A stretch of DNA of 32,400 nucleotides from Patescibacteria group bacterium (GTDB lineage Bacteria; Patescibacteriota; Microgenomatia; UBA12405). Each line of letters opens with the position of its first letter. Position 1 is the first letter of the stretch. Made by a program: the position numbers and the translations under genes. The stretch spans positions 1-32,400 of the forward strand of contig JAHISL010000025.1 of NCBI GenBank assembly GCA_018818185.1. Reading direction: 5' to 3'. Of the stretch, positions 1,754 through 28,215 are shown piece after piece. Under the pieces are notes generated by a model, which did not search any database, was not told where the DNA came from, and saw nothing but the letters and a program-made list of their open reading frames with translations.

Positions 1754-1858
1754 TTTAAAATCCTCCAGCAAACTTTGATAACAACCACTAGATAATACAC
1801 CATTTTAGGCAAAAAACCTAATTTTAAAAGGATAAAAAAATATACGATATAATTCACC

Positions 1859-2662: not shown

Positions 2663-2676
2663 AATTACCATCACCC

Positions 2677-3039
2677 TTATATTCTTACTTCCTCTGGAAC
2701 ACTCTCTTGATTTGGATCTCCATGTCGAACCATCATTTCAGTTCCACGCGGATCACCTTCAAGTTTTAAAACCATACTTTTACCGTCTTCAACAGAATAT
2801 CTCTTTGAAGAAAAATCTCTGCCCAAAAAAGTTATCTCTACCTCATCATTCAAACATGAGTGAGAAAGTGTTATTTGTGTCGAAACACCTCTAACTTGCG
2901 GTAATTTCACAACACAGGGCTTCATGCTCTCACCAAGTACCTCTCTTTTGAATTCCACCCGATCTGGTATCGTTCCCGATAATTTGCTTCTTAAAGAAAC
3001 TTTCCCATTTTCCGTTACCCTAATTATTGCCTCTGTCAT
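2677..3039 (-). CDS. Hypothetical protein
   Basis: Full-length 120-aa ORF with TATAAT 9 nt upstream of ATG; no recognised domain. Confidence 0.55.
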   Translation of the reverse strand: MTEAIIRVTENGKVSLRSKLSGTIPDRVEFKREVLGESMKPCVVKLPQVRGVSTQITLSHSCLNDEVEITFLGRDFSSKRYSVEDGKSMVLKLEGDPRGTEMMVRHGDPNQESVPEEVRI

Positions 3040-3070
3040 ATATCATACATTATAGCACATATTATCCATT

Positions 3071-4060
3071 TTAATTTCGGGATTTCACCGGCCAAGCAAA
3101 AACTGACCGCTTTCCCAGCAAATAATCCCCTGCCTCATTTTTATAATCAATTTGATAGTGATCCAGCAAAGCCCCAACCCAGCTTTCACCCACTTTTTCA
3201 GAAAAACGCCTGACTGACCTCTCATTAAAATCTGGTTCATTTTCATTTCCTTTTTTAAAATCAACTAAAAACGAATTCGCCATTCCTCCCGCAAGTTTCG
3301 AAACCCTACGAACCAACGGAACATAAGCCTCTACCCCCTTTTTCAACAAATATTCAACTATTTCCCCATTGCTCGCCACAGAAGCAACTCTATCCTCCGT
3401 ATAATAATGCTCATTATCCGCCCTAAAAGTCGGACCTCCATATTTGGCCGTTACAATTTCACCAAATGGCTTTCTTATATCCAACCTACGCCTACGACGA
3501 CCATCATACATTTCAGACCGCGCCAAAGTCTTCTCTCCTCGATACACTGTTTCTTCATGTAAAGTCAGCACGGCCCCTGCATAACCATCAATCAATTTTC
3601 CCAATCTCTCTCTATCAGATTTAACCATCTCGGACTTATAAAAAACAAAGGCAGGATGAGGCCTAACCAAAGATTCCATATTCTTTGGCACCACTACCAA
3701 AGCCGCCATTCTCCACTCTTTACCTAACCTAACCATTGGACTAAATTGCTTAATCACAAAACTCTCTCCCTTAATTCTCCTCTCCGACAATCCATTTTTA
3801 GTCAACACAGAATCTAAATGATACTCCTGGGTCAATTCTCCAGCACAATAAGCCCTCCACACTTCACTAATCTTAGAACCACCCCCCTCCGTTTTCATAC
3901 TCTTACCCTTTTCTCTCAACCAAACACCGTGCCCAGAACTTAACCTAGAAAAATTTGCACCATTAACCGAGTCCCACCTCAAATATTTTTCACCATCAGC
4001 AATCAGCTCAAAAGGGCTCTCTCTATGATTAATACTTCCAGCTTCAATTAATCTACTCAT
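3071..4060 (-). CDS. Uncharacterised protein, 329 aa
   Basis: Long ORF with AT-rich -10 (TAATAT/TATAAT) just upstream of ATG; no recognised domain. Confidence 0.65.
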   Translation of the reverse strand: MSRLIEAGSINHRESPFELIADGEKYLRWDSVNGANFSRLSSGHGVWLREKGKSMKTEGGGSKISEVWRAYCAGELTQEYHLDSVLTKNGLSERRIKGESFVIKQFSPMVRLGKEWRMAALVVVPKNMESLVRPHPAFVFYKSEMVKSDRERLGKLIDGYAGAVLTLHEETVYRGEKTLARSEMYDGRRRRRLDIRKPFGEIVTAKYGGPTFRADNEHYYTEDRVASVASNGEIVEYLLKKGVEAYVPLVRRVSKLAGGMANSFLVDFKKGNENEPDFNERSVRRFSEKVGESWVGALLDHYQIDYKNEAGDYLLGKRSVFAWPVKSRN

Positions 4061-4106: not shown

Positions 4107-4298
4107 CTATTTTTCTTTTCCACGGTAACCTTCACTTCTTAAAGTTTTTTTTGAAATTCTCTCCCTACAATGCCCACAAAACACTTTTCCCTCTTTTTCT
4201 CTTGGATAAAATGTCTCTCCACAAAAATTACAAGTCATCTCACCAGGACTTTTCATAGGCCGCATTCCAGGTTTTCCGTACATAGCCTTTACACTCAT
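4107..4298 (-). CDS. Small zinc-ribbon protein (paralogue of the 4334-4516 product)
   Basis: TCNFCGETFYPREKEGKVFCGHCRERI. True ATG placed at 4298 because the upstream 'MRKKTYNIT' of the ORF track is promoter sequence. Confidence 0.65.
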   Translation of the reverse strand: MSVKAMYGKPGMRPMKSPGEMTCNFCGETFYPREKEGKVFCGHCRERISKKTLRSEGYRGKEK

Positions 4299-4333
4299 AG
4301 TTATATTATAGGTCTTTTTTCTCAAAAAGTCAA
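4299..4333 (-). promoter_or_regulatory. Sigma70-type promoter TTGACT-N17-TATAAT, leaderless layout
   Basis: -35 at 4328-4333, -10 at 4305-4310, 6 nt to ATG at 4298. Confidence 0.75.
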
Positions 4334-4516
4334 CTACCTTCCCTTTCCTTTTTTCGTCTTACCTTTTACTTTTACGGAAGCTTCACATAATGGACAAACA
4401 GAACTACCTTTTCTAATCATTGGCATAACAGGTGTATCACAATTATTACAAATAGTTGTGCTACGATCTCTATCTAATGGCCTTTCGCCTTTGCTAATTA
4501 AAATGTTTATACCCAT
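4334..4516 (-). CDS. Small zinc-ribbon protein (paralogue of the 4107-4298 product)
   Basis: TICNNCDTPVMPMIRKGSSVCPLCEASVK. ATG at 4516 preceded by TTGACT-N17-TATAAT-N6. Confidence 0.65.
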   Translation of the reverse strand: MGINILISKGERPLDRDRSTTICNNCDTPVMPMIRKGSSVCPLCEASVKVKGKTKKGKGR

Positions 4517-4551
4517 ATCGATATTATAAGATACTTTTCTCAAAAAGTCAA
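4517..4551 (-). promoter_or_regulatory. Sigma70-type promoter TTGACT-N17-TATAAT, leaderless layout
   Basis: -35 at 4546-4551, -10 at 4523-4528, 6 nt to ATG at 4516. Confidence 0.75.
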
Positions 4552-13466: not shown

Positions 13467-13976
13467 ATGAGTAGTAGTGGCCCAAAGGGAATAAACTGGA
13501 CGGAAGTTTTTCAATTCTATTGTGAAACGATCAATGACAAGTTACCGTCTTACAAAGACGTCGCTAAAAGATTTGGGGTAAGTAAAACCGAAGTCGGTCA
13601 AAAGGCATTGGAAGAGAATTGGATAAATCTTAGACAAGAGTTATACGAAAACGGTAAAACTAAATTTTTAGAGAATAAATCAAACCAAATAGCAGAATCC
13701 GAAACCAGCCAGTTAGACAAATGGAGAGCTATTCAAGATTTGACAGACATTTATCTCGACGAGATCAATAAGGATCCATCACTTAAACAGGTTCATAAAT
13801 TGTATATTGTGTCTAAAATCATTAAGATTGCCATTGAAGGTGAAAGAATAGTTCTTGGATTACCCAACACTGTTCTACCTAATCGATTAACTACTAGAGA
13901 AGAACGTCAAGAATTATCACCAGAACTAATCCAAGAAATTGATAGATTATTTTTAATTAACAAAGCGCTTACTTGA
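13467..13976 (+). CDS. HTH-containing protein (small-terminase-like or regulator)
   Basis: LPSYKDVAKRFGVSKTEVGQKALEENWINLRQ; TAAAAT-N6-ATG. Confidence 0.45.
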   Translation: MSSSGPKGINWTEVFQFYCETINDKLPSYKDVAKRFGVSKTEVGQKALEENWINLRQELYENGKTKFLENKSNQIAESETSQLDKWRAIQDLTDIYLDEINKDPSLKQVHKLYIVSKIIKIAIEGERIVLGLPNTVLPNRLTTREERQELSPELIQEIDRLFLINKALT

Positions 13977-15159
13977 TATTGTTTATTTTTATTTGTAAGA
14001 CACCGACTAACTTCATTATGTATTCGTCTAATTCCAACAAATTTGCTTCCTTGAAACTGTCTCTTTTGACTTCATACACTTTATCGTGGGTTACAAAATA
14101 TAAAACAAAGTCGTTGTTTGTTAGAATGCTGGCAAGGGTTCCTTTGAAGTATTCAAACTCTTTATTGTCATAGGCTAAGGCACAAATATCATTTTTTAGT
14201 TTACTAAGCAACTCACCTTGTCTTTCATAAAAGTCTTTATCAACGTGGTTTTTATTAAATACAACGTAAAATATCATTTTTGGCGTTACTCGGCTGTGTA
14301 ATATGCCTTCTACAGTGGATTCCATTTCCCAAAGTGTTTCTACAACTTCTTCTTCCCTTTTAGGGAGAATGGCACCGTGTACTGGTGTACTTCTTTTTTT
14401 ATGCCACGCACTAAGCATTTTCTTTTTATCTGCCACTGACAAAATCCCTTCCGCAGTCATTAAATCAAGTCCTTCTGCTAAAGAATCTAGTAAGCTCTTC
14501 TTGTGGGTATCCTTTAACCTTCCAATAAGTCTATATTTTTCTTCCTTAGTTAAATCTGTCCACTTTTCAATAATAGAACTAAGTTCCTTTACTTTATCTT
14601 CTGAAAGTATTTTGCCACCTTCGTCACCAAGAACCCTCTCGATAATTGACCAAAGTTTAGTAATTCGATCTCCCGGATCTTCATAAGACTCAAATAGTCG
14701 ATACGATCTTAATCCACTTATCAAACGAGCGTTATTGTCTTTTTTAACAGTATCGTACTGCTTTTGTAGAGCTACTGGATCTCTTAATGAAACCGGGATC
14801 TTGTTTGATAATCTATTACTTCCACCAATACCTAGTGCACTTAATTGATAACTACCACTTTTTATACGTATTCCCCTCGAAGTTGTAAGCGATATAAGGT
14901 CAAGAATTGTATTTAACTCCTCTTCATATTTTTGAAATTCTTCGGTCTCTTTTGAAGGTATTTCTTGCACCAAATTACCCTTCTCATTTTTATCTGTTAG
15001 AGTTGCTTCAAAACTAAACGATACCTCTAGTTCGATATCTGATACTTTTTTGAAATTGTATCTATCTACAGAAAAATTCCAACCTTCACTAAAAAAGGGA
15101 TTTGAATTGTCCTCGTCATTTACCAGTTCCACTAATAGGTCTACATTAACGATATTCAT
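13969..15159 (-). CDS. HEPN-like / ApeA-like protein
   Basis: KLWSIIERVLG...SAWHKKRSTPVHGAILPKREEEVVETLWEMES with R-x4-H motif (RSTPVH). ATG at 15159 chosen because TATAAT lies 9 nt upstream. Confidence 0.45.
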   Translation of the reverse strand: MNIVNVDLLVELVNDEDNSNPFFSEGWNFSVDRYNFKKVSDIELEVSFSFEATLTDKNEKGNLVQEIPSKETEEFQKYEEELNTILDLISLTTSRGIRIKSGSYQLSALGIGGSNRLSNKIPVSLRDPVALQKQYDTVKKDNNARLISGLRSYRLFESYEDPGDRITKLWSIIERVLGDEGGKILSEDKVKELSSIIEKWTDLTKEEKYRLIGRLKDTHKKSLLDSLAEGLDLMTAEGILSVADKKKMLSAWHKKRSTPVHGAILPKREEEVVETLWEMESTVEGILHSRVTPKMIFYVVFNKNHVDKDFYERQGELLSKLKNDICALAYDNKEFEYFKGTLASILTNNDFVLYFVTHDKVYEVKRDSFKEANLLELDEYIMKLVGVLQIKINNIK

Positions 15160-15213
15160 TATAGGTAAATTATACTGCGATTGAGGTAAAATACGGATAT
15201 AGAGGGTAAAAAA

Positions 15214-15513
15214 ATGAATAATCAATCACCAGCGCAAAATAAATTTATATCGCACTTGTTAAAACGCGATCCTAAACTTGGCGAAAAAGATATTCCACCT
15301 CTAGTAAATAGTTTCAAGCGATTTGTAAAAGTGGTTCAGAAAATCTATACCGAACCCCAAGCCCAAATAATAATCAAAAATAAAAAAAGGATTATTACGA
15401 CAGATATTAAAGAGTTTAAGAAGGTTTTTGACAAAGATAATCCCAAACAAGATTTACTTGATACATTTAGAAAATTTCATAAATCTGTAACCAAAGATAA
15501 ATATGGAAGATAA
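15214..15513 (+). CDS. Hypothetical basic protein upstream of, and overlapping, the recombinase
   Basis: 99-aa ORF with GAGGG upstream; overlaps recombinase start. Confidence 0.5.
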   Translation: MNNQSPAQNKFISHLLKRDPKLGEKDIPPLVNSFKRFVKVVQKIYTEPQAQIIIKNKKRIITTDIKEFKKVFDKDNPKQDLLDTFRKFHKSVTKDKYGR

Positions 15514-17029
15514 TGAACCAAAATATAATCGTGTTGTAGCTTATATCCGAAAATCGTCGGAAGATAATAAAGAAGGTGAGGCTAAAAAGCAGTTAAATTC
15601 TCTTGAATATCAAAATGATTTTGTTAAAGAAGCAATAAAGAAATATAAACTTGAACTGGCAGGGCCAATTTTTGAAGACACTAAAACCGGATACGAGGCA
15701 TTCGTGCGCGACGACTTTGCTAAAATGCTCGACTACTTAAAAGACCATAAAGACGAGATCGACGGCATTGTGTGTACTGAAATTAGCCGTCTGGCACGAA
15801 ACTTTGCCGACGGTGGAATGATTCTGTGGTATTTACAAAACGGAACAATTAAAAGAATTTATACTCCCACAAAAGTATTTACTGATTCTTCCGGAGATCA
15901 GTTAATGGTCGCTATTGAATTTGCTATGTCAAAGAAATCAAGCGACGATACGGGATACAGAACGATAGAGGGTATGAAATCAAAAGCAAGGGTAATGAAA
16001 CACCCTGCAAGACCTGCAATACTAGGTTACTTTACCGAAGGAAAAATTGGGCAAAAAAAATGGATTATTGATCCCAAAAAAGGGCCATTAGTTAGACAAG
16101 TCTTTGAACAATTCGCAACAGGAAAATACACTTTTGATCAAATAGCAGATTATGCTTTTAATATCGGACTTAAATCAATTAACAAGAAAACTATTATTGG
16201 AAAAATTTCTAAAAACACTTGGAGAAATAGATTGAGTGACGTTCAATACACAGGTATTTTTGAAAGCGACGGAGAAAGAATTGTAGGTGAATATAAACAT
16301 TTAATAGACACTCCACTTTTTTATCGTGTACAAGAAATTATTACCGACCACGAACACCCAAAAACTACCCACCTAGATTACGCATATTCGGGAATGTTTA
16401 AGTGTGGCCTATGTGGTGGAATGCTTTCAGGAACACACAAGAAAGGAATTACTTATTACCGGTGTGGTAAACGGAAAACCCCTTGTAAAGATATTGCTCG
16501 AATTACTTATATCCCCGAAAAACAACTTGAAGACAGTCTAATGACCGCTTTTGAAAACATAGAAATAGATCAAGATACTTGGAAAGCAGCACGAGAATAT
16601 GTCGCTGAAATAAATCAACCTCAAAAACTCGATATTAAGAAACAAATTCGAATGATAGGAGAAAAGATTTCGGCAGAGCAAAATACCCAAATAAATGTAG
16701 GTAGACGATTTTCAGCGAACGAATATACAAAAATAGATTATGACCGACTTATGGAAGATAGCCGTCGTAAAGAAGCCTCGTATCGAAACACGATTATTAA
16801 ATGTGAGAATATCGTAAACGAACTCGACGAACTTATGTATCAATTCCTCGACAACATTAAATATGTCACTAAAAAGTTGAGACTAGCATTACCAGAGAAC
16901 AAAAGAGAAATGGTTGATATTTTTTGTGAGAACTTGGAGTGGAAAGACGGAAAAGCCCTATGGGACTGGAAGAAACCGTATTTTATAATCGCAAATCGAC
17001 CAAAAAATTCAACAGTGCTCCCCCTCTAA
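15503..17029 (+). CDS. Large serine recombinase (resolvase + recombinase + zinc-ribbon domains)
   Basis: VVAYIRKSSEDNKEGEAKKQLNSLEYQ, GIVCTEISRLARNFADG, zinc ribbon FKCGLCGGMLSGTHKKGITYYRCGKRKTPC. Confidence 0.95.
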   Translation: MEDNEPKYNRVVAYIRKSSEDNKEGEAKKQLNSLEYQNDFVKEAIKKYKLELAGPIFEDTKTGYEAFVRDDFAKMLDYLKDHKDEIDGIVCTEISRLARNFADGGMILWYLQNGTIKRIYTPTKVFTDSSGDQLMVAIEFAMSKKSSDDTGYRTIEGMKSKARVMKHPARPAILGYFTEGKIGQKKWIIDPKKGPLVRQVFEQFATGKYTFDQIADYAFNIGLKSINKKTIIGKISKNTWRNRLSDVQYTGIFESDGERIVGEYKHLIDTPLFYRVQEIITDHEHPKTTHLDYAYSGMFKCGLCGGMLSGTHKKGITYYRCGKRKTPCKDIARITYIPEKQLEDSLMTAFENIEIDQDTWKAAREYVAEINQPQKLDIKKQIRMIGEKISAEQNTQINVGRRFSANEYTKIDYDRLMEDSRRKEASYRNTIIKCENIVNELDELMYQFLDNIKYVTKKLRLALPENKREMVDIFCENLEWKDGKALWDWKKPYFIIANRPKNSTVLPL

Positions 17030-17089
17030 GATTCGAACTTAGGACCAATCGCTTAACAGGCGAGCGCTCTACCACTGAGCTAAGGGGGA
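17018..17089 (-). tRNA. tRNA-Asn (anticodon GTT)
   Basis: Minus-strand TCCCCCT TA GCTC AGTGGTA GAGC G CTCGC CTGTTAA GCGAT TGGTC CTAAG TTCGAAT CTTAG AGGGGGA G: full cloverleaf (one 27-43 mismatch), no encoded CCA. Confidence 0.93.
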
Positions 17090-17183
17090 ATGTGGTCAAA
17101 AAACCATTTCAGATTTTCAAAAGTACAAAGGGATTATAGCATTAAAATCACCTCTAAAATATCCTTAACAAAAACTACCTATA

Positions 17184-17432
17184 TCACGAAAACCGTCTCT
17201 TAATGGGGACAATTTTTGCTAATTCAACATGCCAATCACCATCAAGAAACATCGGCTCTGACATCTTGGGACATACAGACACTTCCGCTGTACTCATAGA
17301 TGATAATATTGGCTGACCAAAGTCAAATCGAGTTTTCGGATGTCTAGTATTTAAGACTCTATTGTGAAAATCAATGTCACAATTTCCATAGGGCCTACCG
17401 CATGTATTACAAACATTTTCACCCTTACCCAT
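17184..17432 (-). CDS. Small Cys-containing hypothetical protein
   Basis: NVCNTCGRPYGNCDIDFHN N-terminus. Confidence 0.5.
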   Translation of the reverse strand: MGKGENVCNTCGRPYGNCDIDFHNRVLNTRHPKTRFDFGQPILSSMSTAEVSVCPKMSEPMFLDGDWHVELAKIVPIKRRFS

Positions 17433-17436
17433 ATTG

Positions 17437-17973
17437 TTATTTTTTCAATAATCTATAATAAAATTTTTTCTTTCCTTTTGCCTTTGCTTCTTTTTTCCTT
17501 CCTCTATTTGTAGATTCCACAAAAGGAAAGCCCTTTTTCCCCACGTTTCCGTCAATTGCAATACAATACGGTGCAGTGAACCTATCATCAGGAACCCCGG
17601 ATCCAGGCCCTTGCACCATCAAAATCCTAAGTCCTTTCTGTGGTATTTCAATGCCTAACACTCTATCAACGCCATTTACCGTGTTACGCAAGGTAATGTC
17701 CACCCTTGCTCCAATTCGGTGAAAATGTTTAACTATTCGTTCTTCCATTAAATTAAAAGTTATACCACTATAATCACATCTCCCACACTTCGGAATCTCT
17801 TCTCCAATATCCGGACACACCAACCCACTCTGCGCTTTTCTAACAGGACATTCCCCCGCCCATACCTCATCTATGGTCCCATGTCTTGAACTCATATTAT
17901 TCAAATGCCCCACCACTTCATCCGCCGTCGATTTTGGTATTGTCACATATCCTTCACGATATCCATAGTTCAT
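17437..17973 (-). CDS. Uncharacterised Cys-rich protein
   Basis: CPVRKAQSGLVCPDIGEEIPKCGRCDYSG; ATG 'MNYGYREGY' chosen. Confidence 0.5.
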   Translation of the reverse strand: MNYGYREGYVTIPKSTADEVVGHLNNMSSRHGTIDEVWAGECPVRKAQSGLVCPDIGEEIPKCGRCDYSGITFNLMEERIVKHFHRIGARVDITLRNTVNGVDRVLGIEIPQKGLRILMVQGPGSGVPDDRFTAPYCIAIDGNVGKKGFPFVESTNRGRKKEAKAKGKKKFYYRLLKK

Positions 17974-17977
17974 ATAT

Positions 17978-19183
17978 TTATCTTTTTTCAATAAACTTAC
18001 CTTCAACTATTTTTTCGGGAGAGTTTCCAATTTGATCCGGAGATAAAGGCTTACTCGTAATCGAATTAGGTATATCCCCTACAATTCGAGCAAACGCTGC
18101 CTTGGTAGAAGCAAATTCTCTTGCTGAACTTTCGCCCAATATTTTTCTTTGAGACTCAGAAGCCAAAGTCATGATCCCACCCAAAAATTTCGAGGCAGCC
18201 GTATGTGCATTCAACTCCAGGGAAAATGCTGATAACAAGGCCACCTGAGCCGAAGAATATGCCTCAGCCATCAAGGGTTGATTCCCCCACCCAGCCATCA
18301 AAACATTACCCGCAACAGTAATAACCCCAGGCAAGGTCTGTCTTATTCGATAACTTTCCGAAACACTATTAACCATCCTGTCGACCTTCTGTAATTCTTC
18401 AAGGGACATCAAATCTCTCGGGTCAGTTGTATTTGAAAACTTTTTCAATCTTTCTGCCAACTCTTCCAATGCTTTGTTCACACCCGGAACACCTTCTTTA
18501 GTCACTCTTTGTGCTTCTTGAAGTTTACCTTTCAACTCCTCCATTTTTAAAATAACCAACTGGTTATTAGAAGCATTTTTTTCAAACATTTCTCTTGCCT
18601 TAATAGCATTATCTCTCAACTGTGGCATTATTCTTGCCGCCGCCAACCCGTCATTTATTGGTTCACGAATTACTTCCATTCCTGAAATAAACAAAGCCAT
18701 TGTCTTACTTTTTTCTCTAGTTTCTTTATTAAATCTTGCCCTTAATCCCGAAACATCAAGTCCGTTAATCGCCTCCCATAACCCAACGGCCCCTCTTGTC
18801 AAATTACTCAAAAACTGATCATTCATCCATTCTTCCGGCCTATCAACACTCCCCATCTTACCATCACTGGGAAAAAGAGCACTTCTAAATATATTCATCC
18901 CTTGAACCGCTTGTATTTGTGAAAAGGTCGCTAATTCTGCCGCCTGGGCAATTGCCTTAACCGGAATACTCCCTCCCACGCCGCTTTCTGTTGGAATGAT
19001 TCGATTATCACTAAGCCCAACCCCTTTTCCTCTCCTAATTGAATCTTTTAATGGTTTATTTGCACCTATTGTTGACTGAACAAGTTGATATATTTCTGGT
19101 TGTGCAATCTCAATACCCCTATACACTTCATTTTGAATTTGATTTTCCCCTTTTCCACCACTTTCAATTTTGTTTCTTCCCAT
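17978..19183 (-). CDS. Uncharacterised protein, 401 aa
   Basis: Long ORF in a minus-strand operon-like run; no recognised domain. Confidence 0.65.
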   Translation of the reverse strand: MGRNKIESGGKGENQIQNEVYRGIEIAQPEIYQLVQSTIGANKPLKDSIRRGKGVGLSDNRIIPTESGVGGSIPVKAIAQAAELATFSQIQAVQGMNIFRSALFPSDGKMGSVDRPEEWMNDQFLSNLTRGAVGLWEAINGLDVSGLRARFNKETREKSKTMALFISGMEVIREPINDGLAAARIMPQLRDNAIKAREMFEKNASNNQLVILKMEELKGKLQEAQRVTKEGVPGVNKALEELAERLKKFSNTTDPRDLMSLEELQKVDRMVNSVSESYRIRQTLPGVITVAGNVLMAGWGNQPLMAEAYSSAQVALLSAFSLELNAHTAASKFLGGIMTLASESQRKILGESSAREFASTKAAFARIVGDIPNSITSKPLSPDQIGNSPEKIVEGKFIEKR

Positions 19184-19188
19184 ATTTT

Positions 19189-20277
19189 TTAATTAAAATT
19201 ATAATTGTTAATTAATTTTTCTAATTCCTCTTGCTCTTTTGCCATAGAAGCAAAACCCTTTTTCCAATTTCTACCTTCTGTCAAAGCACCCAATTGTCTT
19301 TCAACTTTCCTTCCCGCCGTCGCAATTCCTCCAACATGAAACAAATCAACACAATGCGCCAAAAATATTAGTGATCTACCGGGAATAGCATTCTCAGTTA
19401 TCCCTTTCATAATGGCTAGTCTTCCAACCAACATCTGCGATCGTAGGGCCACTGACTTCAAAGCCGATCTACTTCTATTGTTTCTAACTATCTGCTCAGC
19501 CAACCATTTTTCGGGAGAACCATTTTTTCCCTCTTCCAACATAACCTTTTTTGCTTGATCTCGGGATAAAACCGAACTTATCCCCGACAACAACTCTGCT
19601 TCCACCATCGCCTCAACTGAAGCTACAGCCAATTGGTTAATTGCTTCAAAACCTGGCAAATTTACCTGCCACAACACTGGATCAAAAAACAAATCATCCA
19701 ACACTCTGGCAAAACCTTTTTTTTCAGGTCTATATTGCTGAATAGACTCACCAGCTTCACTTTCCCAAAAAACTTGTCTAATTGGAGCCGTATTTATTTC
19801 CACCGCTCTTACGGGACCAAATTCAACATAATCTCCTTCCCAATAATTTTGTTGAGGTAATGAAATATTCTTTGTCAACTCCGCAACCGCCTCTCTAACC
19901 TCTGGTGCAACTTCAGCCAAACTCTTATGCGTTTCGTTCTCTAATGTTCCCCAAATTTCATTATGACCACTAAAATCGACCTCTGGCGGAGCATGATTTA
20001 TTGTTGCCATTTTTACCAAAACAGCTGGAAAATTTGAAGGAGCAATTTCCAACAATGCCTTCTCTGGCGGTTTTTCACTTCTAAATATTTGTTCTTTTAT
20101 TTCTGGTGGCAAATACGCTTCTGGATCATACAGCCATCCGATATCTGCCTTAGTTTCAACAACAACTGGCTCAGGAACAGTAAATAATGACAAACCTCCC
20201 TCTTTAACCTCTGGCAAAGCCACATTATCCGGCATCTGAAACACACCTCCCACATTTCCTTCTTTTGTGTTTGTCAT
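19189..20277 (-). CDS. Uncharacterised protein, 362 aa
   Basis: Long ORF; start 36 nt downstream of the module-1 3' inverted repeat. Confidence 0.65.
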   Translation of the reverse strand: MTNTKEGNVGGVFQMPDNVALPEVKEGGLSLFTVPEPVVVETKADIGWLYDPEAYLPPEIKEQIFRSEKPPEKALLEIAPSNFPAVLVKMATINHAPPEVDFSGHNEIWGTLENETHKSLAEVAPEVREAVAELTKNISLPQQNYWEGDYVEFGPVRAVEINTAPIRQVFWESEAGESIQQYRPEKKGFARVLDDLFFDPVLWQVNLPGFEAINQLAVASVEAMVEAELLSGISSVLSRDQAKKVMLEEGKNGSPEKWLAEQIVRNNRSRSALKSVALRSQMLVGRLAIMKGITENAIPGRSLIFLAHCVDLFHVGGIATAGRKVERQLGALTEGRNWKKGFASMAKEQEELEKLINNYNFN

Positions 20278-20313
20278 ATTTTATTTAAAACTTTAATTTT
20301 TATTTTATAAATG

Positions 20314-20412
20314 CAAGTCAGAGAAGATCGGGGTGTGGGGTTTGGGGGGTGTTTTTTTGTTTTTTTTGGCCTTCAGCCCCTGGGAGGGGGTTTTACCCCC
20401 CTCCAACCTCCC
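20314..20412 (-). other. Module 1 3' end: GC hairpin, A/C-rich tract and long-range complementary strand
   Basis: GGAGGGGG-GTAAAA-CCCCCTCC hairpin (stop codon in loop), GGCCAAAAAAAACAAAAAAACACC, then TCTTCTCTGACTTG complementary to 20894-20907. Confidence 0.6.
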
Positions 20413-20806
20413 ATCCGGCCACCCACTCCAGAGCGGCCGCCGCCCAATCTAAGGCGGTGGCAAAAACCTTCAACACCCAGGCCAGGTATGGCCCGAGATT
20501 GAAGATAAATGACGGCGCCGCCGTAAAGACAAAACCCCAGGGGGTTTCATCGATCAACGACGGGTTGTCGACAGAAAAGGACCAAAAAAGCAGTCCTCCA
20601 ATCCCGAAAACAAATCCACTTACCCCCTCAATTATTTCCCTGAGAGGGTCCTTTCCGGACTCCTCACGGAGTAAAACAATCACCAAACTGATCGCCAACG
20701 TGCCGATCAATCCAATAATTGTAAACCAAACCGGCCATCCCGTAAGGGCGCCGATAACAACCAACAGGGAAATTAATCCCTGTAAGATGTTCAAGAAAAC
20801 CACCAT
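20393..20806 (-). CDS. Multi-pass small membrane protein
   Basis: MVVFLNILQGLISLLVVIGALTGWPVWFTIIGLIGTLAISLVIVLL...; strong RBS AAAGGAGGAAAACCATG, so ATG at 20806 rather than the upstream ORF-track start; locally GC-rich. Confidence 0.75.
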   Translation of the reverse strand: MVVFLNILQGLISLLVVIGALTGWPVWFTIIGLIGTLAISLVIVLLREESGKDPLREIIEGVSGFVFGIGGLLFWSFSVDNPSLIDETPWGFVFTAAPSFIFNLGPYLAWVLKVFATALDWAAAALEWVAGWEVGGG

Positions 20807-21037
20807 GGTTTTCCTCCTTTCTTTTACACGCAACCCGAATTGGTTGACATGAATCAATCTTGGTTATTTCAAAACTGATTCATGCCAACCTTTTCTTCTC
20901 TGACTTGTTAAAGTGCTCTTTGGCTTTCGCCAAAGACCAAAAAAAGGCCTCAACTTGACCCGAAGCTTTATCGGGTTTTATTAAAGGCCTCAAATTGTTT
21001 CATACATGGGCTTAATGCCTCTTTCTGAAACATAGAG
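20807..21037 (-). ncRNA. Module 1 structured leader RNA (candidate)
   Basis: Four hairpins on the minus strand: 20997-21031; 20958-20976 nested in AGGCCT arms followed by T7; 20917-20936 with GAAA tetraloop; 20842-20890 with 15-bp stem. Confidence 0.6.
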
Positions 21038-21038
21038 A

Positions 21039-21067
21039 AATATACATCACAAATGTGTATAAGTCAA
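21039..21067 (-). promoter_or_regulatory. Promoter TTGACT-N17-TATATT of module 1
   Basis: -35 at 21062-21067, -10 at 21039-21044. Confidence 0.75.
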
Positions 21068-21111
21068 GCTTTTTTGTCCTGTTTTAATATCTTTATAAGA
21101 TTTTCTTATAT

Positions 21112-22395
21112 CTATTGTCCCAAGGCTGCGTTTATCGGACCAAGATAAGTATTCCTCACGTGTTGTCTCATCACCAATGGCCAAAAAGCCCCTGCCAAAT
21201 ATAATTGTCCTTTTGCCATCTCCAACTCAGGACCGGCAACACCCATTTTTTTCAATTGCTTAATCTGTCTTTCAATTTGTTTTCCAACCTCCTCCGTCAC
21301 TTTATTTACTGCCATAGCTCCAATTTTTTCAATCTCAGTCAATCTTTCCTTCAAAATTTCTCGTACCGACATATTTTTATCCTGACTAACCGGAATTCTA
21401 TCATCTAAAGATAATCCTTCATTTATCAACAACAAGACACTATCCTCTACTTTTACCTTAGCCACCCTTTCTGTTTCTTTTGTCAGCTCATCCCTCGTTA
21501 TTGTTTCAGTGCTTACTCTTTTTTCAGAGTAGCGCGTCTTTTTCCCATGTCTAACAGCTACAAGTTCATCCTTACTCTCTGACCTTGTATTGTATTGTGT
21601 TCGCCCCACCACCGATAAACTTTCGCCTCCAGAAACTAATCTAGAAAATTTTACTCCGTTACTTAAAGCAGTTAACCCCTCAAGACAAGCATTTAACTGT
21701 TTTTTTATTCCCTCAGCCTGGTCGCGTGAAATCCTTCCATTTTTATCAAGCACCGCACCCAATGGTGGATCCGGATACATTAATATTTCCGGGTGAAGCC
21801 TTTTGTATTCTCTAAATTTTTCAGCATCTGTTTGCACCCTAGGCTTTGGCACATCCGACATAGATACCTTCACTCCCACAACAGTCGATGTGCAGCTCTC
21901 ATACACATTCTTGGCCATTGCCACCAAAAACGACGAATTCCCTACAGCCCTCACATCACCTCCAACTGGTTTCAAAGCTACTTCCGCAAAGATCAATTTC
22001 CCAGGAATTGGTTCAGTGTGAAGATACTGCACCATCTCATAAACCCTTCCACCAACTCTAAAATGTGACAAACCTGCACGCGCTAACTCTGGACAAAGTT
22101 TTTCCTCTCTTGCTCCATTTTCTATCCCTAAAAATGCCTGACTAAACATTTTCGTGCTTTCGTCAACATACCTTTCTTTCTTGCCTGCCAAATCCATTCC
22201 CCCTTCTACCCATCTCTCCACAGTCTTGTCAAAATCTCCTTTGTACAAATCTTTTGCTCCAATCTTTACCGGCAAAACATTACCATTTCCTGACTCTTTA
22301 AAAATAGGGTTATTAGCCAAAAAAACAGCCAATATACCCGCCATAGCCTCAGGTCTTTCTACCTTCTTCCTCTGAACCGCAACTTCTCTATTCAT
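21112..22395 (-). CDS. Uncharacterised protein, 427 aa
   Basis: Long ORF; ATG 'MNREVAV' chosen; downstream of perfect promoter. Confidence 0.65.
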   Translation of the reverse strand: MNREVAVQRKKVERPEAMAGILAVFLANNPIFKESGNGNVLPVKIGAKDLYKGDFDKTVERWVEGGMDLAGKKERYVDESTKMFSQAFLGIENGAREEKLCPELARAGLSHFRVGGRVYEMVQYLHTEPIPGKLIFAEVALKPVGGDVRAVGNSSFLVAMAKNVYESCTSTVVGVKVSMSDVPKPRVQTDAEKFREYKRLHPEILMYPDPPLGAVLDKNGRISRDQAEGIKKQLNACLEGLTALSNGVKFSRLVSGGESLSVVGRTQYNTRSESKDELVAVRHGKKTRYSEKRVSTETITRDELTKETERVAKVKVEDSVLLLINEGLSLDDRIPVSQDKNMSVREILKERLTEIEKIGAMAVNKVTEEVGKQIERQIKQLKKMGVAGPELEMAKGQLYLAGAFWPLVMRQHVRNTYLGPINAALGQ

Positions 22396-22424
22396 AACAC
22401 ACAACAAATATATATAAGTGACTG

Positions 22425-22453
22425 TTTATACATCAGCCTTACTTGCTTGTCAA
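22425..22453 (-). promoter_or_regulatory. Promoter TTGACA-N17-TATAAA
   Basis: -35 at 22448-22453, -10 at 22425-22430; short leader lacking an evident RBS. Confidence 0.75.
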
Positions 22454-22492
22454 TACAATACATATTTTATATAGGGTAAATATATATACCTT

Positions 22493-23719
22493 TTACGACA
22501 AAAAATGTCGCATTGGATTTAGGTAATATTCTTCAACATATTTCAAATACATCGCCGGCCAAATACTCATCAGATTTTTTATTGTCTTTTCGTAAATATC
22601 CATTTCCTCCCGATTAAATCTCCTCGATTTCCTCATGCTTTCTATCAACAAAGTTCCCACCTTTTTTGAACCATTATCAATACTCACCAAATTTCTAGAA
22701 ATTGTAGTTCCCATTTCATATGTTATGTGCTGAAGTATCTCCCCAACCGTTTCCTCATTACCATTGTACAAAACCACCTCATGACTTCCTATCTTACCCC
22801 CCATAATCCAATACATCAAATCTATCATTACTCCGTCATCTCCATACTTTCTAAAGTCGTTAATCTCTATCCTGGTCATTCCCTCAGAGTTTGTTTGCCC
22901 CCTAAACAAATCAGTTGTTTCACCAAAAACTCTTTTCCGACTTTTTTGTTTGGGTCGACGAATAACCATTTCAGCCACAAATCTCCCTTTATCCTCCTCC
23001 AATTTATTCACCATCTTTTCAGATAACTTAATGTCTTTCGCCGGAATTGTCATTGTCATGGCAATTTCTTTCATCCCCTTGCTTACCTTCTCGACTAACC
23101 CAATCGCTTCTTCATTCAAACTAATCTCACCTCCTTTATCAAAAATTACAGGCAAAATAGCTCCTGGAAATGAAATTTGCCTTCCTGAAAAATCTTCGTA
23201 AGCAGGATACACTCCTTTCCACGATTGTCTTTGTCTTGTTTTGGAATCATCCTTTGCCAATTGTGGGCCCTTTTTTTGTTCTCTAATATACCCTCTCGGC
23301 ACTACCCGAACACCTGCCAAACACACCTTCCCCCCACTGGGAGATTCTATTGGTAGCTCGATTCCCGTAGATATCATTTCCACCCCAAAGACTTTATCTA
23401 CAAACCCTAATCTTTTTCCTTCTTTGCTTTTTCCAACACCCTCCCACAAAGCACCAAACACATTCTTTCCATTTTCCAACCAATTCTTTGTTTCCACTGG
23501 CAAATCCCTAATTTTTCTCCCAATACCAAAACGAGCCCTTTCCACATACTCACCCAATGGTGATAATTTCTTGAAATCACTTCTTAAAAATGGATTTATT
23601 TTTGATAAATGCACCAAATCTTCCCCAGGAATCTTTGCAGTTATCTCTCCAAGTTTCTTCTGACTAGAAATTTCCCAACCACTTTCAGGAGCTGATTCAT
23701 GTCCACGTCTATAAGCCAT
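22493..23719 (-). CDS. Uncharacterised protein, 408 aa
   Basis: Long ORF downstream of perfect promoter. Confidence 0.65.
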   Translation of the reverse strand: MAYRRGHESAPESGWEISSQKKLGEITAKIPGEDLVHLSKINPFLRSDFKKLSPLGEYVERARFGIGRKIRDLPVETKNWLENGKNVFGALWEGVGKSKEGKRLGFVDKVFGVEMISTGIELPIESPSGGKVCLAGVRVVPRGYIREQKKGPQLAKDDSKTRQRQSWKGVYPAYEDFSGRQISFPGAILPVIFDKGGEISLNEEAIGLVEKVSKGMKEIAMTMTIPAKDIKLSEKMVNKLEEDKGRFVAEMVIRRPKQKSRKRVFGETTDLFRGQTNSEGMTRIEINDFRKYGDDGVMIDLMYWIMGGKIGSHEVVLYNGNEETVGEILQHITYEMGTTISRNLVSIDNGSKKVGTLLIESMRKSRRFNREEMDIYEKTIKNLMSIWPAMYLKYVEEYYLNPMRHFLS

Positions 23720-23743
23720 TAATTATCAAAATTCTAATGCTTC

Positions 23744-23772
23744 TTTATACCTCAAAGCACATCATTTGTCAA
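23744..23772 (-). promoter_or_regulatory. Promoter TTGACA-N17-TATAAA
   Basis: -35 at 23767-23772, -10 at 23744-23749. Confidence 0.75.
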
Positions 23773-23797
23773 CTATATTTTTTTATTATAAGCTAGT

Positions 23798-23998
23798 TTA
23801 TTTCCTATCCCCTGTCGGTTGTGCCTTAGTTATTCCTGCCACATTCCAACCCCCTGTAATCTCAGTTTGTTCATGGTGACAATCCTCCCCCGTATCTCTT
23901 CCTGTATGCCTTGCCTTCAATTTCCCTCCCTCTGTCAGATGAGCAGTTTCATCTACTTCACAATCAAACAATCTTGGCTGTTCTTCTTGTTTTCTCAT
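23798..23998 (-). CDS. Small hypothetical protein
   Basis: 66-aa ORF with TATAAT-N6-ATG. Confidence 0.45.
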   Translation of the reverse strand: MRKQEEQPRLFDCEVDETAHLTEGGKLKARHTGRDTGEDCHHEQTEITGGWNVAGITKAQPTGDRK

Positions 23999-24012
23999 AC
24001 TTATATTATATC

Positions 24013-24216
24013 TTACCTACTTCTTCTCCTTACTTCTTTATCAATAACTGCCTGTTTAACTCTCTCTGTTGCCACAACCACATCAACAGCTTCAGAAATT
24101 CTACCTAAAAATCCATTTTTTCTTGGCTTCATTACCTCATCCTGATTACTCAAGACTTCGCTCCAGCCAGTTCCATTTCTTCCCGCCCTTTTTCCTTCAA
24201 TTTTAAAAATTGTCAT
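24013..24216 (-). CDS. Small hypothetical protein
   Basis: ATG 'MTIFKIEGKRAGRN' chosen; the longer track ORF runs through the GC hairpin and A/C-rich tract. Confidence 0.45.
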   Translation of the reverse strand: MTIFKIEGKRAGRNGTGWSEVLSNQDEVMKPRKNGFLGRISEAVDVVVATERVKQAVIDKEVRRRSR

Positions 24217-24253
24217 TAATTTTCTTAAACTTATAATCAAAATTTTAATGATG

Positions 24254-24345
24254 CCTGCGAAATATTTGTTTTTTGTGTGTGTTTGTTTTTTTTGTTTTTG
24301 CCCTTGGCCGTTTGGTGGAGGGGTATAAATACCCCCCCACCTCAC
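24254..24345 (-). other. Module 2 3' end: GC hairpin, A/C-rich tract and long-range complementary strand
   Basis: GGTGGGGGGGTA-TTTA-TACCCCTCCACC 12-bp stem with one G.U, then GGCCAAGGGCAAAAACAAAAAAAACAAACACACAC, then ACAAATATTTCGCAGG complementary to 24790-24805. Confidence 0.6.
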
Positions 24346-24353
24346 CGATATAC

Positions 24354-24542
24354 TTAGTCAGGATCGCCGGCGCCGGCAATCCTCGACAATCCTAATTCTC
24401 TCTCTTGAACTTCAAGAGAGATATCCGATTCTTTGGTTTTTGCTAGCATCTTTTCTCTGCAGCTTTGAAAAAATTTACACCCAGAACAATTATTTAACGG
24501 ACATTGATCTGGTTTTCCAGGAGTTTTATTTTTTGTCATCAT
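24354..24542 (-). CDS. Small Cys-rich protein
   Basis: DQCPLNNCSGCKFFQSCREKM. Confidence 0.45.
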   Translation of the reverse strand: MMTKNKTPGKPDQCPLNNCSGCKFFQSCREKMLAKTKESDISLEVQERELGLSRIAGAGDPD

Positions 24543-24682
24543 CGTACCTTCCCAGCATCTAGTTTTCGATTGTGCAATTCTTTCAATTCGGCATCTGATA
24601 ACGACTTTCCAGCCCGTGCCAGCTTCTTTTGTTTCTGTTCCAATACTCTGATTCTCCTAAGATTACCATCCTTTGAACACAT
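24539..24682 (-). CDS. Small hypothetical protein
   Basis: ATG preceded by AAAAGGATAATAGC; overlaps the next ORF start. Confidence 0.4.
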   Translation of the reverse strand: MCSKDGNLRRIRVLEQKQKKLARAGKSLSDAELKELHNRKLDAGKVR

Positions 24683-24727
24683 GCTATTATCCTTTTCTTG
24701 TGGGCAAGTATTATTTAATCCACTCAC

Positions 24728-24891
24728 ATTGAGTAGAACCCAATCAGTTCACAATCTTTCAATTGTGCTCTCATCGGGCCCACTCAATCACAAATATTTC
24801 GCAGGTTTTTAAAGTACTCTTACTTCCCGCCAATGTGATTGCTATGTATCTCACCGCAGTCTTGTAAGATACTTCTCAGTCTATCACAATG
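24728..24891 (-). ncRNA. Module 2 structured leader RNA (candidate)
   Basis: Nested helices 24728-24734/24782-24788, 24739-24744/24773-24778, 24750-24756/24761-24767 (GAAA loop); 9-bp stem 24846-24854/24864-24872; enclosing ATCACA/TGTGAT. Confidence 0.6.
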
Positions 24892-24943
24892 TCTTATAAT
24901 ATCAAGGAGTCAAATACACATTTATTGCACACATTTTTATGCT

Positions 24944-25337: not shown

Positions 25338-25604
25338 TTATCTATATACCTCTTTTCGAAAAGCCACCTCTACAACCTTAATTCTCCTTGCCTTGTTATC
25401 CACCTCAAAAATCAATCTCAACTTACCCATTCTCAATCTGAAATAATCCCCCAGTTCACCACTTAGTTTTTTAACATTGTTATTGTTCAGATAGTTGTTC
25501 AACAAACTAGCTTTAAGAAAAATTCTTTCGGCATCTTTTTTTGATAGTTTTTTAAAATCCTTTTTTGCCTCATCAGAAAAACCTATTTCAAAGTTTAACT
25601 TCAT
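25338..25604 (-). CDS. RelE/YoeB-family toxin
   Basis: FSDEAKKDFKKLSKKDAERIFLKA...KKLSGELGDYFRLRMGKLRLIFEVDNKARRIKVVEVAFRKEVY. Confidence 0.85.
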   Translation of the reverse strand: MKLNFEIGFSDEAKKDFKKLSKKDAERIFLKASLLNNYLNNNNVKKLSGELGDYFRLRMGKLRLIFEVDNKARRIKVVEVAFRKEVYR

Positions 25605-25866
25605 ATTCTCTAGCCAAATCTTCCAAACTGGTAAAACCTTTACCTCTGCCTTCTTTTTCCAACTTATAAACCAACTGTTGATCCTCCCAATCCTCCAGCT
25701 TTTCTAAGATAGTTTTAAATTCCTTCATACTCAACACCACCGCCTGCGGTTCAGATCTCTGAAAGATATACTTCATACCTTTTTTCTGAACATCTTTTAA
25801 AAAGCTGATAGCGTCAACCCGCATATCAGTTACTGTACTTATATTATCTTTGCTTGGTATAAACAT
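25588..25866 (-). CDS. Phd/YefM-family antitoxin
   Basis: ISTVTDMRVDAISFLKDVQKKGMKYIFQRSEPQAVVLSMKEFKTILEKLED; overlaps toxin; TTGTAA-N17-TATATT-N6-ATG. Confidence 0.85.
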   Translation of the reverse strand: MFIPSKDNISTVTDMRVDAISFLKDVQKKGMKYIFQRSEPQAVVLSMKEFKTILEKLEDWEDQQLVYKLEKEGRGKGFTSLEDLAREYEVKL

Positions 25867-25959: not shown

Positions 25960-28215
25960 ATGTCTGATATTGCTTCGCTTTGGAAAATTTTAGAAATCCG
26001 TCTACCTCAAGAAAACGAGTTCACTCCCGAGTCCATGTCTTCTCTTCTAAGCAACTTTGTCCAAATGAGCCACAAATCATTTTTCAACCGTATCTTTGGC
26101 AAAAAAACAACCATCACCTCCTTAGAAATCGTTCTTCTCGATGGACAAATTCATTTCTATGTCACCATTCCCGCCGCCAATTTCGAGTTTTTTCGTGCTC
26201 AAATCCTCGCCCAATACCCCACCGCCATCACCAAAGAATCAAAAGACTATTTAGATAGATTAGTGGATAAAAGCGGAGTAAACAATTTTTCGGAGCACAG
26301 CGAACGCGAAGGCGTAGCCAAGCCCGTAGGTAGCGAGCACCGCAAAAATTCGTTTACAAACGAATTATCCATGAGCCAATTAACTCTTGCCCGTCCCTAT
26401 ACCTACCCCCTCAAAACCAACCGTGATTTTCGTGACACCGACCCCCTGGCCTCAGTTCTTTCTCCCCTGGCTCGCTCCGCCCAATCCCAAGATTTTTTTG
26501 TTTACCAAATTCTCCTTTCCGCCCCTCCAAAAAATTGGCAATCGTCAATTATCTCCGTCATTCAAAACGGCATTGTTGTCGACAAGGAAAAAGGTTTTCG
26601 CCAAGCCCATCCCGACAAACAAGTTTTCGAAACCAAAATTCAATACCCTGGTCTATTAACCCAGATAAATCTTCTTAGTAACAACCCTTCGCTATTAAAC
26701 TCCATTTCTTCCTCTTTTGGTATCTACACCTCCCCCAGAGGCAACTTTATCAAGCCCTCTTCCCCCTCCTTTCTATACAAAAGAAACCTCAAAAAATCAA
26801 TTTTTCATCGATCTTTTTTACCCGGTCTTTCGACACAAATTTTGAATGTTGAGGAACTTTCTGCTCTTTGGCATTTTCCCACCTCGCTCACCAAGCTCCC
26901 CAACATCGCCTGGGGCAAAAATCTTTTCTCTGACCCTCCCGAAAACCTTCCTGCCGCTACTAATCTCGACGACGCCGCCAAGGAGAAAATCACCTTTTTT
27001 GCCAAAACCGAATTTCATAATCAAGATACCATCTTTGGCATCAAAGAAGGTGAGGATCGCCGCCGCCACACCTACATTATCGGAAAATCTGGTACCGGAA
27101 AAACCACCCTCATTGCCAACATGGCCATCGACGATATTCGTAAAGGTCGAGGTGTCGCCGTTATCGATCCACATGGCGATTTGTGCAACACTATTCTCGA
27201 CTACATTCCCGCCTCTCGTATCAATGATTGTTGTTATTTCAATCCTGCAGATCCAGATTATGTTTATCCTCTCAATGTCCTTGAAGCCCAAAACGAGTCT
27301 CAAAAAGAGCTTGTTGCCTCTGGCGTCATCTCAATTTTTAAGAAACTTTACGGCAATGTCTCCTGGGGACCCCGTCTAGAACACATTCTTCGCAATGCAG
27401 TTTTAACCCTCGTCAATACACCTGGCTCAGATCTAACTCATGTTGTTGAAATATTAACTCACAAAGAATATCGTAATCAGGTTGTCGCCGGCCTCAAAAA
27501 CCAAACCCTAAAAAATTTCTGGATTAATGAATATGACCGGATGGATGCCAAATTCCAAAATGAAGCTATTTCTCCCATTCTCAACAAAGTTGGTCAGTTT
27601 ATTTCCTCCACCAATATTAGAAACACCATTGCCCACCCCAAATCAAAGATTCGTATCGAAGACATTATGAACGAGAAGAAAATCCTTATCGCCGATCTTT
27701 CCACCGGAAAATTAGGTGAAGATAACTCTGCTCTTCTCGGCGCCATGTTAATTACTCAAATCCAGCTTTCTGCTATGAACCGCGTTTTCCAAGGCGAGTC
27801 AGAACGTTCTGATTTTTATCTTTATGTCGACGAATTCCAAAACTTTGCCACCGAAGCCTTCATCAAAATCCTCTCTGAAGCTCGGAAATTTAAACTAAAC
27901 CTTATTGTCGCCAATCAATATATGGCCCAGCTTGATCGTCCTATCCAAGATGCTCTATTTGGAAACGTTGGCTCCCTCCTCTCCTTTGTCGTCGGCAATC
28001 AAGATGCTTATCTTCTCAGCAAAGAATTTGGCCCAAAATTCCCCCCCGAAGACCTAGTAAAAATTGGAAAATACCAGATTATTTGCAAACTTAGTATCGA
28101 TTCCGAAACCCAAAATCCTTTTTACGCCACCACTCTCTCACCTCTTTCCTGTAAAAACCAGGGTCGCGACAAACTAATTCGCACTTCCCAAGAACGTTGG
28201 GGTAAAGTAAAATAG
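25960..28215 (+). CDS. VirD4/TraG/HerA-like conjugation-type ATPase
   Basis: TYIIGKSGTGKTTLIANMAIDDIRKGRGVAVIDPHGDL (Walker A), FYLYVDEFQNFATEAFIKILSEARKFKLNLIVANQYMAQL (Walker B and sensor). Confidence 0.9.
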   Translation: MSDIASLWKILEIRLPQENEFTPESMSSLLSNFVQMSHKSFFNRIFGKKTTITSLEIVLLDGQIHFYVTIPAANFEFFRAQILAQYPTAITKESKDYLDRLVDKSGVNNFSEHSEREGVAKPVGSEHRKNSFTNELSMSQLTLARPYTYPLKTNRDFRDTDPLASVLSPLARSAQSQDFFVYQILLSAPPKNWQSSIISVIQNGIVVDKEKGFRQAHPDKQVFETKIQYPGLLTQINLLSNNPSLLNSISSSFGIYTSPRGNFIKPSSPSFLYKRNLKKSIFHRSFLPGLSTQILNVEELSALWHFPTSLTKLPNIAWGKNLFSDPPENLPAATNLDDAAKEKITFFAKTEFHNQDTIFGIKEGEDRRRHTYIIGKSGTGKTTLIANMAIDDIRKGRGVAVIDPHGDLCNTILDYIPASRINDCCYFNPADPDYVYPLNVLEAQNESQKELVASGVISIFKKLYGNVSWGPRLEHILRNAVLTLVNTPGSDLTHVVEILTHKEYRNQVVAGLKNQTLKNFWINEYDRMDAKFQNEAISPILNKVGQFISSTNIRNTIAHPKSKIRIEDIMNEKKILIADLSTGKLGEDNSALLGAMLITQIQLSAMNRVFQGESERSDFYLYVDEFQNFATEAFIKILSEARKFKLNLIVANQYMAQLDRPIQDALFGNVGSLLSFVVGNQDAYLLSKEFGPKFPPEDLVKIGKYQIICKLSIDSETQNPFYATTLSPLSCKNQGRDKLIRTSQERWGKVK
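26265..26370. repeat. Long imperfect palindrome inserted in frame in the ATPase gene
   Basis: GGATAA...GTAAACAATTTTTCGG.GC.C.GCGA ... TAGCGAGCACCGCAAAAATTCGTTTAC...TTATCC. Confidence 0.6.

Follow-up and report, generated by a model that had tools for sequence, protein, structure and literature searches.

boxA and a leader-trailer helix around small protein genes of Patescibacteria: messenger RNAs possibly organized like pre-16S transcripts

boxA is the NusB-S10 binding site of ribosomal RNA (rRNA) leaders and of phage nut sites. In rRNA (rrn) operons it belongs to a boxB-boxA-boxC leader, is followed by a strand that pairs with the 16S trailer, and is bound within the rrn transcription antitermination complex, rrnTAC; for E. 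coli it has been proposed that NusB keeps boxA attached to the polymerase, with the nascent RNA forming a loop, until the trailer appears and pairs, and the formation of 30S subunits is affected by boxA as well as by the helix (PMC10250234). boxA also precedes some protein genes, namely suhB and ParE-like toxin genes, where it lies at most 50 bp from the start codon and its known effect is repression; the portion of the report drawn on here describes neither a distal partner strand nor a leader-trailer helix for these leaders (PMC5725501). Here, we describe two minus-strand loci, modules 1 and 2, in a stretch of 32,400 nucleotides (nt) from a Patescibacteria group bacterium (GenBank assembly GCA_018818185.1, contig JAHISL010000025.1, positions 1 to 32,400; hereafter, the window), in both of which a boxA and an adjacent strand with a distal complement surround small open reading frames (ORFs). 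We regard it as rather probable that the two loci encode "boxA-stalk" messenger RNAs (mRNAs), in which a Nus-modified polymerase and a boxA-tethered leader would lead to a leader-trailer helix closing around the ORF, yielding discrete messages with protected ends.

An initial annotation of the window had noted that the two loci share the same order of parts, and all of its coordinates agree with the sequence. Both loci contain a 13-nt block, AAGAGYACTTTAA (20908-20920 and 24809-24821; 12 of 13 positions identical), which is present in exactly two copies in the 762-kb assembly, both of them in the window. The strand next to it was said to be complementary to a sequence past the coding sequence (CDS), and the pairing is indeed free of mismatches over 14 bp in module 1 and over 16 bp in module 2 (Table 1). 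These two arm pairs are the two longest inverted repeats in the window at spacings of 60 to 1,500 nt. The accompanying caveat, that a 14-bp repeat alone is unremarkable, was justified: dinucleotide shuffles give 0.48 repeats of at least 14 bp per window, i.e., about one within 1.5 kb for every two shuffled windows, and 0.017 repeats of at least 16 bp. This expectation speaks for a mere chance similarity in an AT-rich window. A lone repeat could be luck, but luck hardly accounts for two that both lie directly 3' of the same 13-mer in loci with a matching order of parts, and chance is left with next to no probability by the shared block, by two further modules found in the same genome from boxA alone, and by the compensatory changes in orthologues described below, which refute it. 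Elsewhere in the family, the exact 13-mer has three matches outside the window's genome, which were set aside, as they apparently all lie within CDSs (two in the codons of a P-loop GKSTL).

The further parts that the annotation had listed fared unequally. Long hairpins following the 5' arm are strong relative to shuffled sequences in both modules, and the hairpin-rich leaders are moderately so (z -4.1 in module 1; Table 1 for module 2). Module 2 has a significant G-run/C-run hairpin, that of module 1 is no better than expected from base composition, GGCCAA with its A/C tract is not general across modules, and the AT-rich gaps of 36 and 37 nt to ATGACAA starts, present in both window modules, are not common to most of the others. 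Retrons, group I/II introns, integron attC sites, and HEARO/OMEGA-type RNAs were considered and dropped, since none explains a boxA together with an ORF-enclosing helix and Rfam gave no match.

By its sequence, the shared block is a boxA element. The published E. coli consensus is GYTCTTTAANA (PMC5725501), and the module boxA differs from it by one base. As the window's own assembly holds no 16S gene, we took rrn leaders from relatives. Two genomes of the same genus (G015 and G019; G, L, and C numbers are our labels for genomes, loci, and contigs) carry CAGCACTTTAACAAA between promoter and 16S, the boxA part of which is identical to GCACTTTAACA of module 1, the leaders of G001, G006, and G021 carry GTACTTTAAAA, identical to the boxA of module 2, and those of others carry GCTCTTTAACA or GTTCTTTAACA, the textbook form of boxA. 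The rrn operons also provide a counterpart to the module helix: in 15 of 21 operons of the family, a helix of 10-16 bp with the 16S trailer begins 6-24 nt from the boxA start (e.g., ATATCAGCTTCATT, 14 bp, in G020 and TAAAATTTCACCAGT, 15 bp, in G021), and the 5' arm of the modules begins 7-14 nt from the boxA start, with arms of 12-18 bp that are almost all Watson-Crick. Given that boxA is followed by an arm pairing past the gene, as in rrn, a module can be read as a pre-16S-style transcript in which a protein gene replaces 16S. Module 1 further resembles an rrn leader in having a hairpin upstream of boxA.

There are also differences from rrn. The strand just 3' of boxA pairs past the gene and keeps doing so despite sequence change, as in an rrn-type helix, but what it encloses is ORFs and not rRNA, and the arms, about 0.5-1.7 kb apart, form a clean helix of 12-18 bp and are unrelated to the rrn arms; in addition, some modules end in a hammerhead ribozyme. 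With Rfam, at gathering as well as permissive thresholds, the window yields only a tRNA and chance microRNA-like matches, and the window modules match no family above the gathering threshold. Of the new structured-RNA class that had been suggested for the two loci, the shared architecture thus stands, whereas the fold is not unprecedented, being the layout of a pre-16S transcript around protein genes.

To find further modules in the same genome, we located boxA-like sites first and then looked downstream for a complement of the adjacent bases; the helix was not used for finding sites, and pairing was tested directly, the arms having no conserved sequence. Four loci resulted, the two window modules and two others with lipoprotein cargo (modules 3 and 4; Table 1), and outside these four neither the other boxA-like sites nor any of the 474 TTTAA positions in the boxA-like loci of this genome reached the stalk score cut-off of at least 28. 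Beyond this genome, relatives contain about 30 modules, spread over at least 15 genomes, of which one belongs to another family; the family search and the fetched boxA sites together give 36 distinct candidate modules under strict limits, including a few doubtful ones. Within the same fetched family loci, a stalk score of at least 28 is reached by 21 of 69 distinct boxA sites, compared with 12 of 1,184 other TTTAA sites, controls that may themselves include stalks of the opposite strand. The arms differ in nearly every module, and the boxA outside them is shared. The system appears to span several genera and to extend to one or more further families of the class.

Some modules stand in tandem arrays (L115 in G006 and L116 in G007). 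The array in G007 (contig C1, minus strand, 1500-4000) consists of boxA-stalk modules of ~500-650 nt each, with possibly non-coding cargo. At L124 (G006:C3), two neighboring modules at 6197 and 7743 have identical arms, AATACGACCGCAGA, and similar secreted proteins of ~400 amino acids (aa), an apparent duplication with divergence of the cargo. Weak candidates at L090, L125, L127, L139, and L119 (at 6891) were set aside as probably spurious.

Comparison among relatives bears out what had been supposed from the two loci only, a single RNA architecture in which the cargo is exchanged and the ORFs lie within a long-range helix: homologues keep the pairing, and covariation in orthologues supports it strongly. 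For module 2, we aligned the window with G008, G016, and G021, found through a profile of the Cys-rich cargo protein, and with G010, found through boxA and stalk. All four relatives have a boxA and a perfect stalk (with one G-U in two of them), and the stalk sequences range from CCTGCGAAATATTTGT in the window to CCTGCGTTTTCTTG in G008 and AATCCGTGTTTCTTT in G021, the arms of G010 being near-identical to those of G016. In this gapless alignment, 65 of 65 cells are paired and 11 of 13 pairs are changed on both sides, and neither value is reached by any of 500 shuffles; sliding the partner strand by 1-3 columns brings pairing down to 34-63%. The alignment shows that the predicted helix of module 2 is kept through compensatory changes. 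Module 4 presents a similar picture, as homologues of its lipoprotein in G026, G024, G022, G008, and G110, the last from another family of the class, each come with a boxA and a stalk, the arms of which differ.

The 3' arm is directly followed by a type III-like hammerhead ribozyme in lipoprotein modules, among them module 4, and at L082, L083, L084, L120, L131, and L143. Our parser required stems I, II, and III and both core strings (CUGANGA and GAA); the structural features of the type III hammerhead, core, three paired stems, and NUH cleavage site, were found in relatives and in module 4. Among the fetched loci there are nine complete parses, five of them directly on the 3' arm; complete examples include L131 (uagcau-U/UAUCGAUGUGUAUCGAUA-CUGAUGA-GUCCGAAAGGAC-GAA-augcua), L143, L083, L117, L124, L127, L180, and L050 of the window's own genome. 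The canonical A15.1-U16.1 pair is present in six of the nine parses and reversed in the hammerheads of module 4, L084, and L117. Three loci match Rfam's Hammerhead_3 (RF00008), but with 24-28 bits they fall short of its gathering score of 48.5. Neither window module has a hammerhead, and we found no report of hammerheads in this lineage in the open-access literature searched.

Perfect inverted repeats around small, unrelated genes, together with the tandem arrays, could also be taken for a DNA-level element, either an invertible segment or a mobile cassette with terminal inverted repeats, and the few mismatches seen (three G-U versus two A-C) do not favor RNA over DNA pairing. Against this, it is the boxA outside the repeat that is shared and not the repeat itself, and boxA, ORF, and ribozyme keep a constant orientation. 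In addition, the rrn operons of the same genomes show the same layout of boxA and helix, hammerheads act in RNA only, and no transposase or target duplication was seen, with transposases not systematically searched for. We therefore consider a DNA-level element very improbable.

Regarding the cargo, the small CDSs noted in the window are real, as judged from a Shine-Dalgarno sequence in module 1 and from orthologues in module 2 (Table 1), and most cargo ORFs of the other modules likewise have a good Shine-Dalgarno sequence and sense orientation. Cargo sequences are unrelated among modules; many of the proteins look like lipoproteins or membrane proteins, going by lipobox and hydrophobicity. 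Cargo of the module 2 type comprises two small proteins, of which one has four conserved cysteines; L119 encodes an M23 peptidase-like exported protein within a weaker stalk that has two G-U pairs. The cargo of module 1, its neighbor proteins, and the module 3 lipoprotein are orphans for which homology searches gave no relatives. These features bear on the possibility that the modules produce structured non-coding RNAs or ribonucleoprotein scaffolds, expressed like rRNA, with the ORFs as secondary passengers. The architecture is indeed that of a non-coding RNA operon, and in the G007 array some modules lack a clear ORF; yet most modules have a well-placed Shine-Dalgarno sequence and a full sense ORF, the cargos of modules 2 and 4 are conserved as proteins across genera, and the cargo differs from module to module, so that we hold this explanation to be quite improbable.

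The modules carry both cis elements, correctly ordered and at a short distance from each other, and it is simplest to suppose that the machine which makes rRNA also makes these mRNAs. On the boxA-stalk reading, NusB-S10 on boxA would join RNA polymerase in an antitermination complex, and the 5' arm would be held at the RNA exit, with the ORF forming a growing loop. Once the 3' arm emerges, the helix would close around the ORF, and the closed stalk would define and protect the ends of the message. Maturation might proceed through RNase III-type cutting or, in many modules, through hammerhead cleavage a few nt past the 3' arm. The product would be a discrete, long-lived, and possibly highly produced mRNA for small proteins, mostly membrane proteins and lipoproteins. 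It is tempting to speculate that there is a whole class of mRNAs that are made and matured like rRNA, often cleaved by hammerheads and sealed at their ends (perhaps even circularisable), for small surface proteins; we offer this wider proposal tentatively, with doubt slightly outweighing belief.

The strongest alternative is a suhB-like regulatory switch, in which Nus factors, the 3' arm, or both would control translation or premature termination rather than yield a stable mRNA, for example through a late 3' arm that acts back on boxA or the ribosome-binding site. The best-studied boxA of an mRNA, that of suhB, represses translation (PMC5725501), strong hairpins lie between arm and ORF, and the end of boxA is often part of the 5' arm as well (offsets 7-10), such that helix and NusB could compete. 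Against this, boxA lies roughly 90-250 nt from the start codon here rather than close to it as in suhB-like leaders, the position of the helix matches that in rrn, where it serves maturation, hammerheads next to the 3' arm suggest that ends are formed there, and the cargo is unrelated among modules. On balance, we judge a switch unlikely, albeit the least unlikely of the alternatives.

Several observations weigh against the boxA-stalk reading itself. Position 3 of boxA is A where E. coli has T, which is also the case in the rrn leaders of relatives. Some modules have no convincing ORF, especially in G007 (at least two in its array). Hammerheads with a swapped 15.1/16.1 pair may be weak or slow. 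The mismatches of the helix are too few to tell RNA from DNA pairing. Finally, neither the G028 orthologue of the Cys-rich cargo nor a distant lipoprotein homologue in G043 has a boxA or stalk, showing that these proteins can be encoded outside a module. A module is also absent at several distant homologues from other families. The module-less orthologue in G028 (L159, contig C12) lies beside what is apparently the same HerA/TraD-like ATPase gene as that at 25960-28215 of the window.

Every part of the boxA-stalk module has a precedent, boxA on mRNAs included. Like lambda nut sites (boxA and boxB), which serve antitermination, the modules have a boxA with adjacent hairpins, but they add an enclosing helix, and no phage N-like protein was identified here. 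With the bacterial type III hammerheads (RF00008; PMC3088659), module 4 and its counterparts in relatives share stems I-III and the CUGANGA...GAA core, but they score below the Rfam gathering threshold and are tied to boxA-stalk modules instead of prophage integrases. For the combination, in which boxA and a leader-trailer helix surround a protein gene, cargo is freely exchanged, and hammerheads occur on the 3' side, we found no precedent in the open-access literature searched. Work on the two elements has dealt almost exclusively with rRNA, an essential product that blurs antitermination, folding, and processing; short protein-coding transcripts with swapped cargo would provide a natural set for asking what the two elements do alone. 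They point to a route for stable messages in bacteria with reduced genomes, and hammerheads may gain a clear job in them, the formation of 3' ends beside the stalk. A boxA and an arm with a distal complement form a pattern that can be searched for across all bacteria.

Table 1. Positions of the parts of modules 1 and 2 in the window, and further modules of the same genome
Feature	Position	Strand	Evidence or remark
Promoter-like site, module 1	21039..21067	-	TTGACT-17-TATATT, consensus match only
boxB-like hairpin, module 1, CTTTGGC-GAAA-GCCAAAG, directly 5' of boxA	20918..20935	-	sequence, fold
boxA GCACTTTAACA, module 1, core of shared block	20906..20916	-	as rrn boxA of G015, G019
Leader (5') arm, module 1, 14 bp	20894..20907	-	inverted-repeat search
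Long post-arm hairpin, module 1, 21 bp	20842..20890	-	fold z -6.7
Cargo, module 1, 137-aa multi-pass membrane protein	20393..20806	-	Shine-Dalgarno AAAGGAGG; orphan
G-run/C-run hairpin, module 1, after ORF	20383..20404	-	fold z -0.9
Trailer (3') arm, module 1	20314..20327	-	pairs with 5' arm
Promoter-like site, module 2, weak	24878..24905	-	consensus match
Leader hairpin, module 2	24822..24890	-	fold z -1.7
boxA GTACTTTAAAA, module 2	24807..24817	-	as rrn boxA of family members G001, G006, G021
Leader (5') arm, module 2, 16 bp	24790..24805	-	covariation with orthologues
Long post-arm hairpin, module 2	24728..24788	-	fold z -8.9
Cargo a, module 2, 47-aa helical protein	24539..24682	-	G008 orthologue, 49% identical
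Cargo b, module 2, 62-aa Cys-rich protein, four conserved Cys	24354..24542	-	orthologues G008, G016, G021, G028
G-run/C-run hairpin, module 2, after ORFs	24308..24341	-	fold z -3.9
Trailer (3') arm, module 2	24254..24269	-	covariation with orthologues
Further own-genome module, 15-bp stalk	C43:2845		lipoprotein cargo MNKRSIMVLALAFGLIFTLGCS...
Further own-genome module, 16-bp stalk, one G-U	C59:5402		lipoprotein cargo MNTRKILTVLVTIVILMVTLACVF...

The two window modules sit between long orphan genes that form a minus-strand run (17184-24216; 362, 401, 427, and 408 aa, and smaller ones); neither Pfam nor PHROG gave a match above threshold for these genes, and family searches, where made, found no relative. 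Between module 2 and the ATPase gene lies what looks by eye like a RelBE/YafQ-like toxin-antitoxin pair (25338-25866). On the other side, the region 13467-17139 contains a large serine recombinase (15503-17029), the end of which overlaps a tRNA-Asn (17017-17089), with a small helix-turn-helix/terminase-like ORF upstream, and is likely a mobile element integrated at the 3' end of the tRNA. Farther away, two tandem paralogous small proteins of zinc-ribbon-like type (4107-4325 and 4334-4543) are 35% identical, and a small zinc-ribbon/topoisomerase-like ORF contains an imperfect direct repeat of 138 bp (128-423; 75%).

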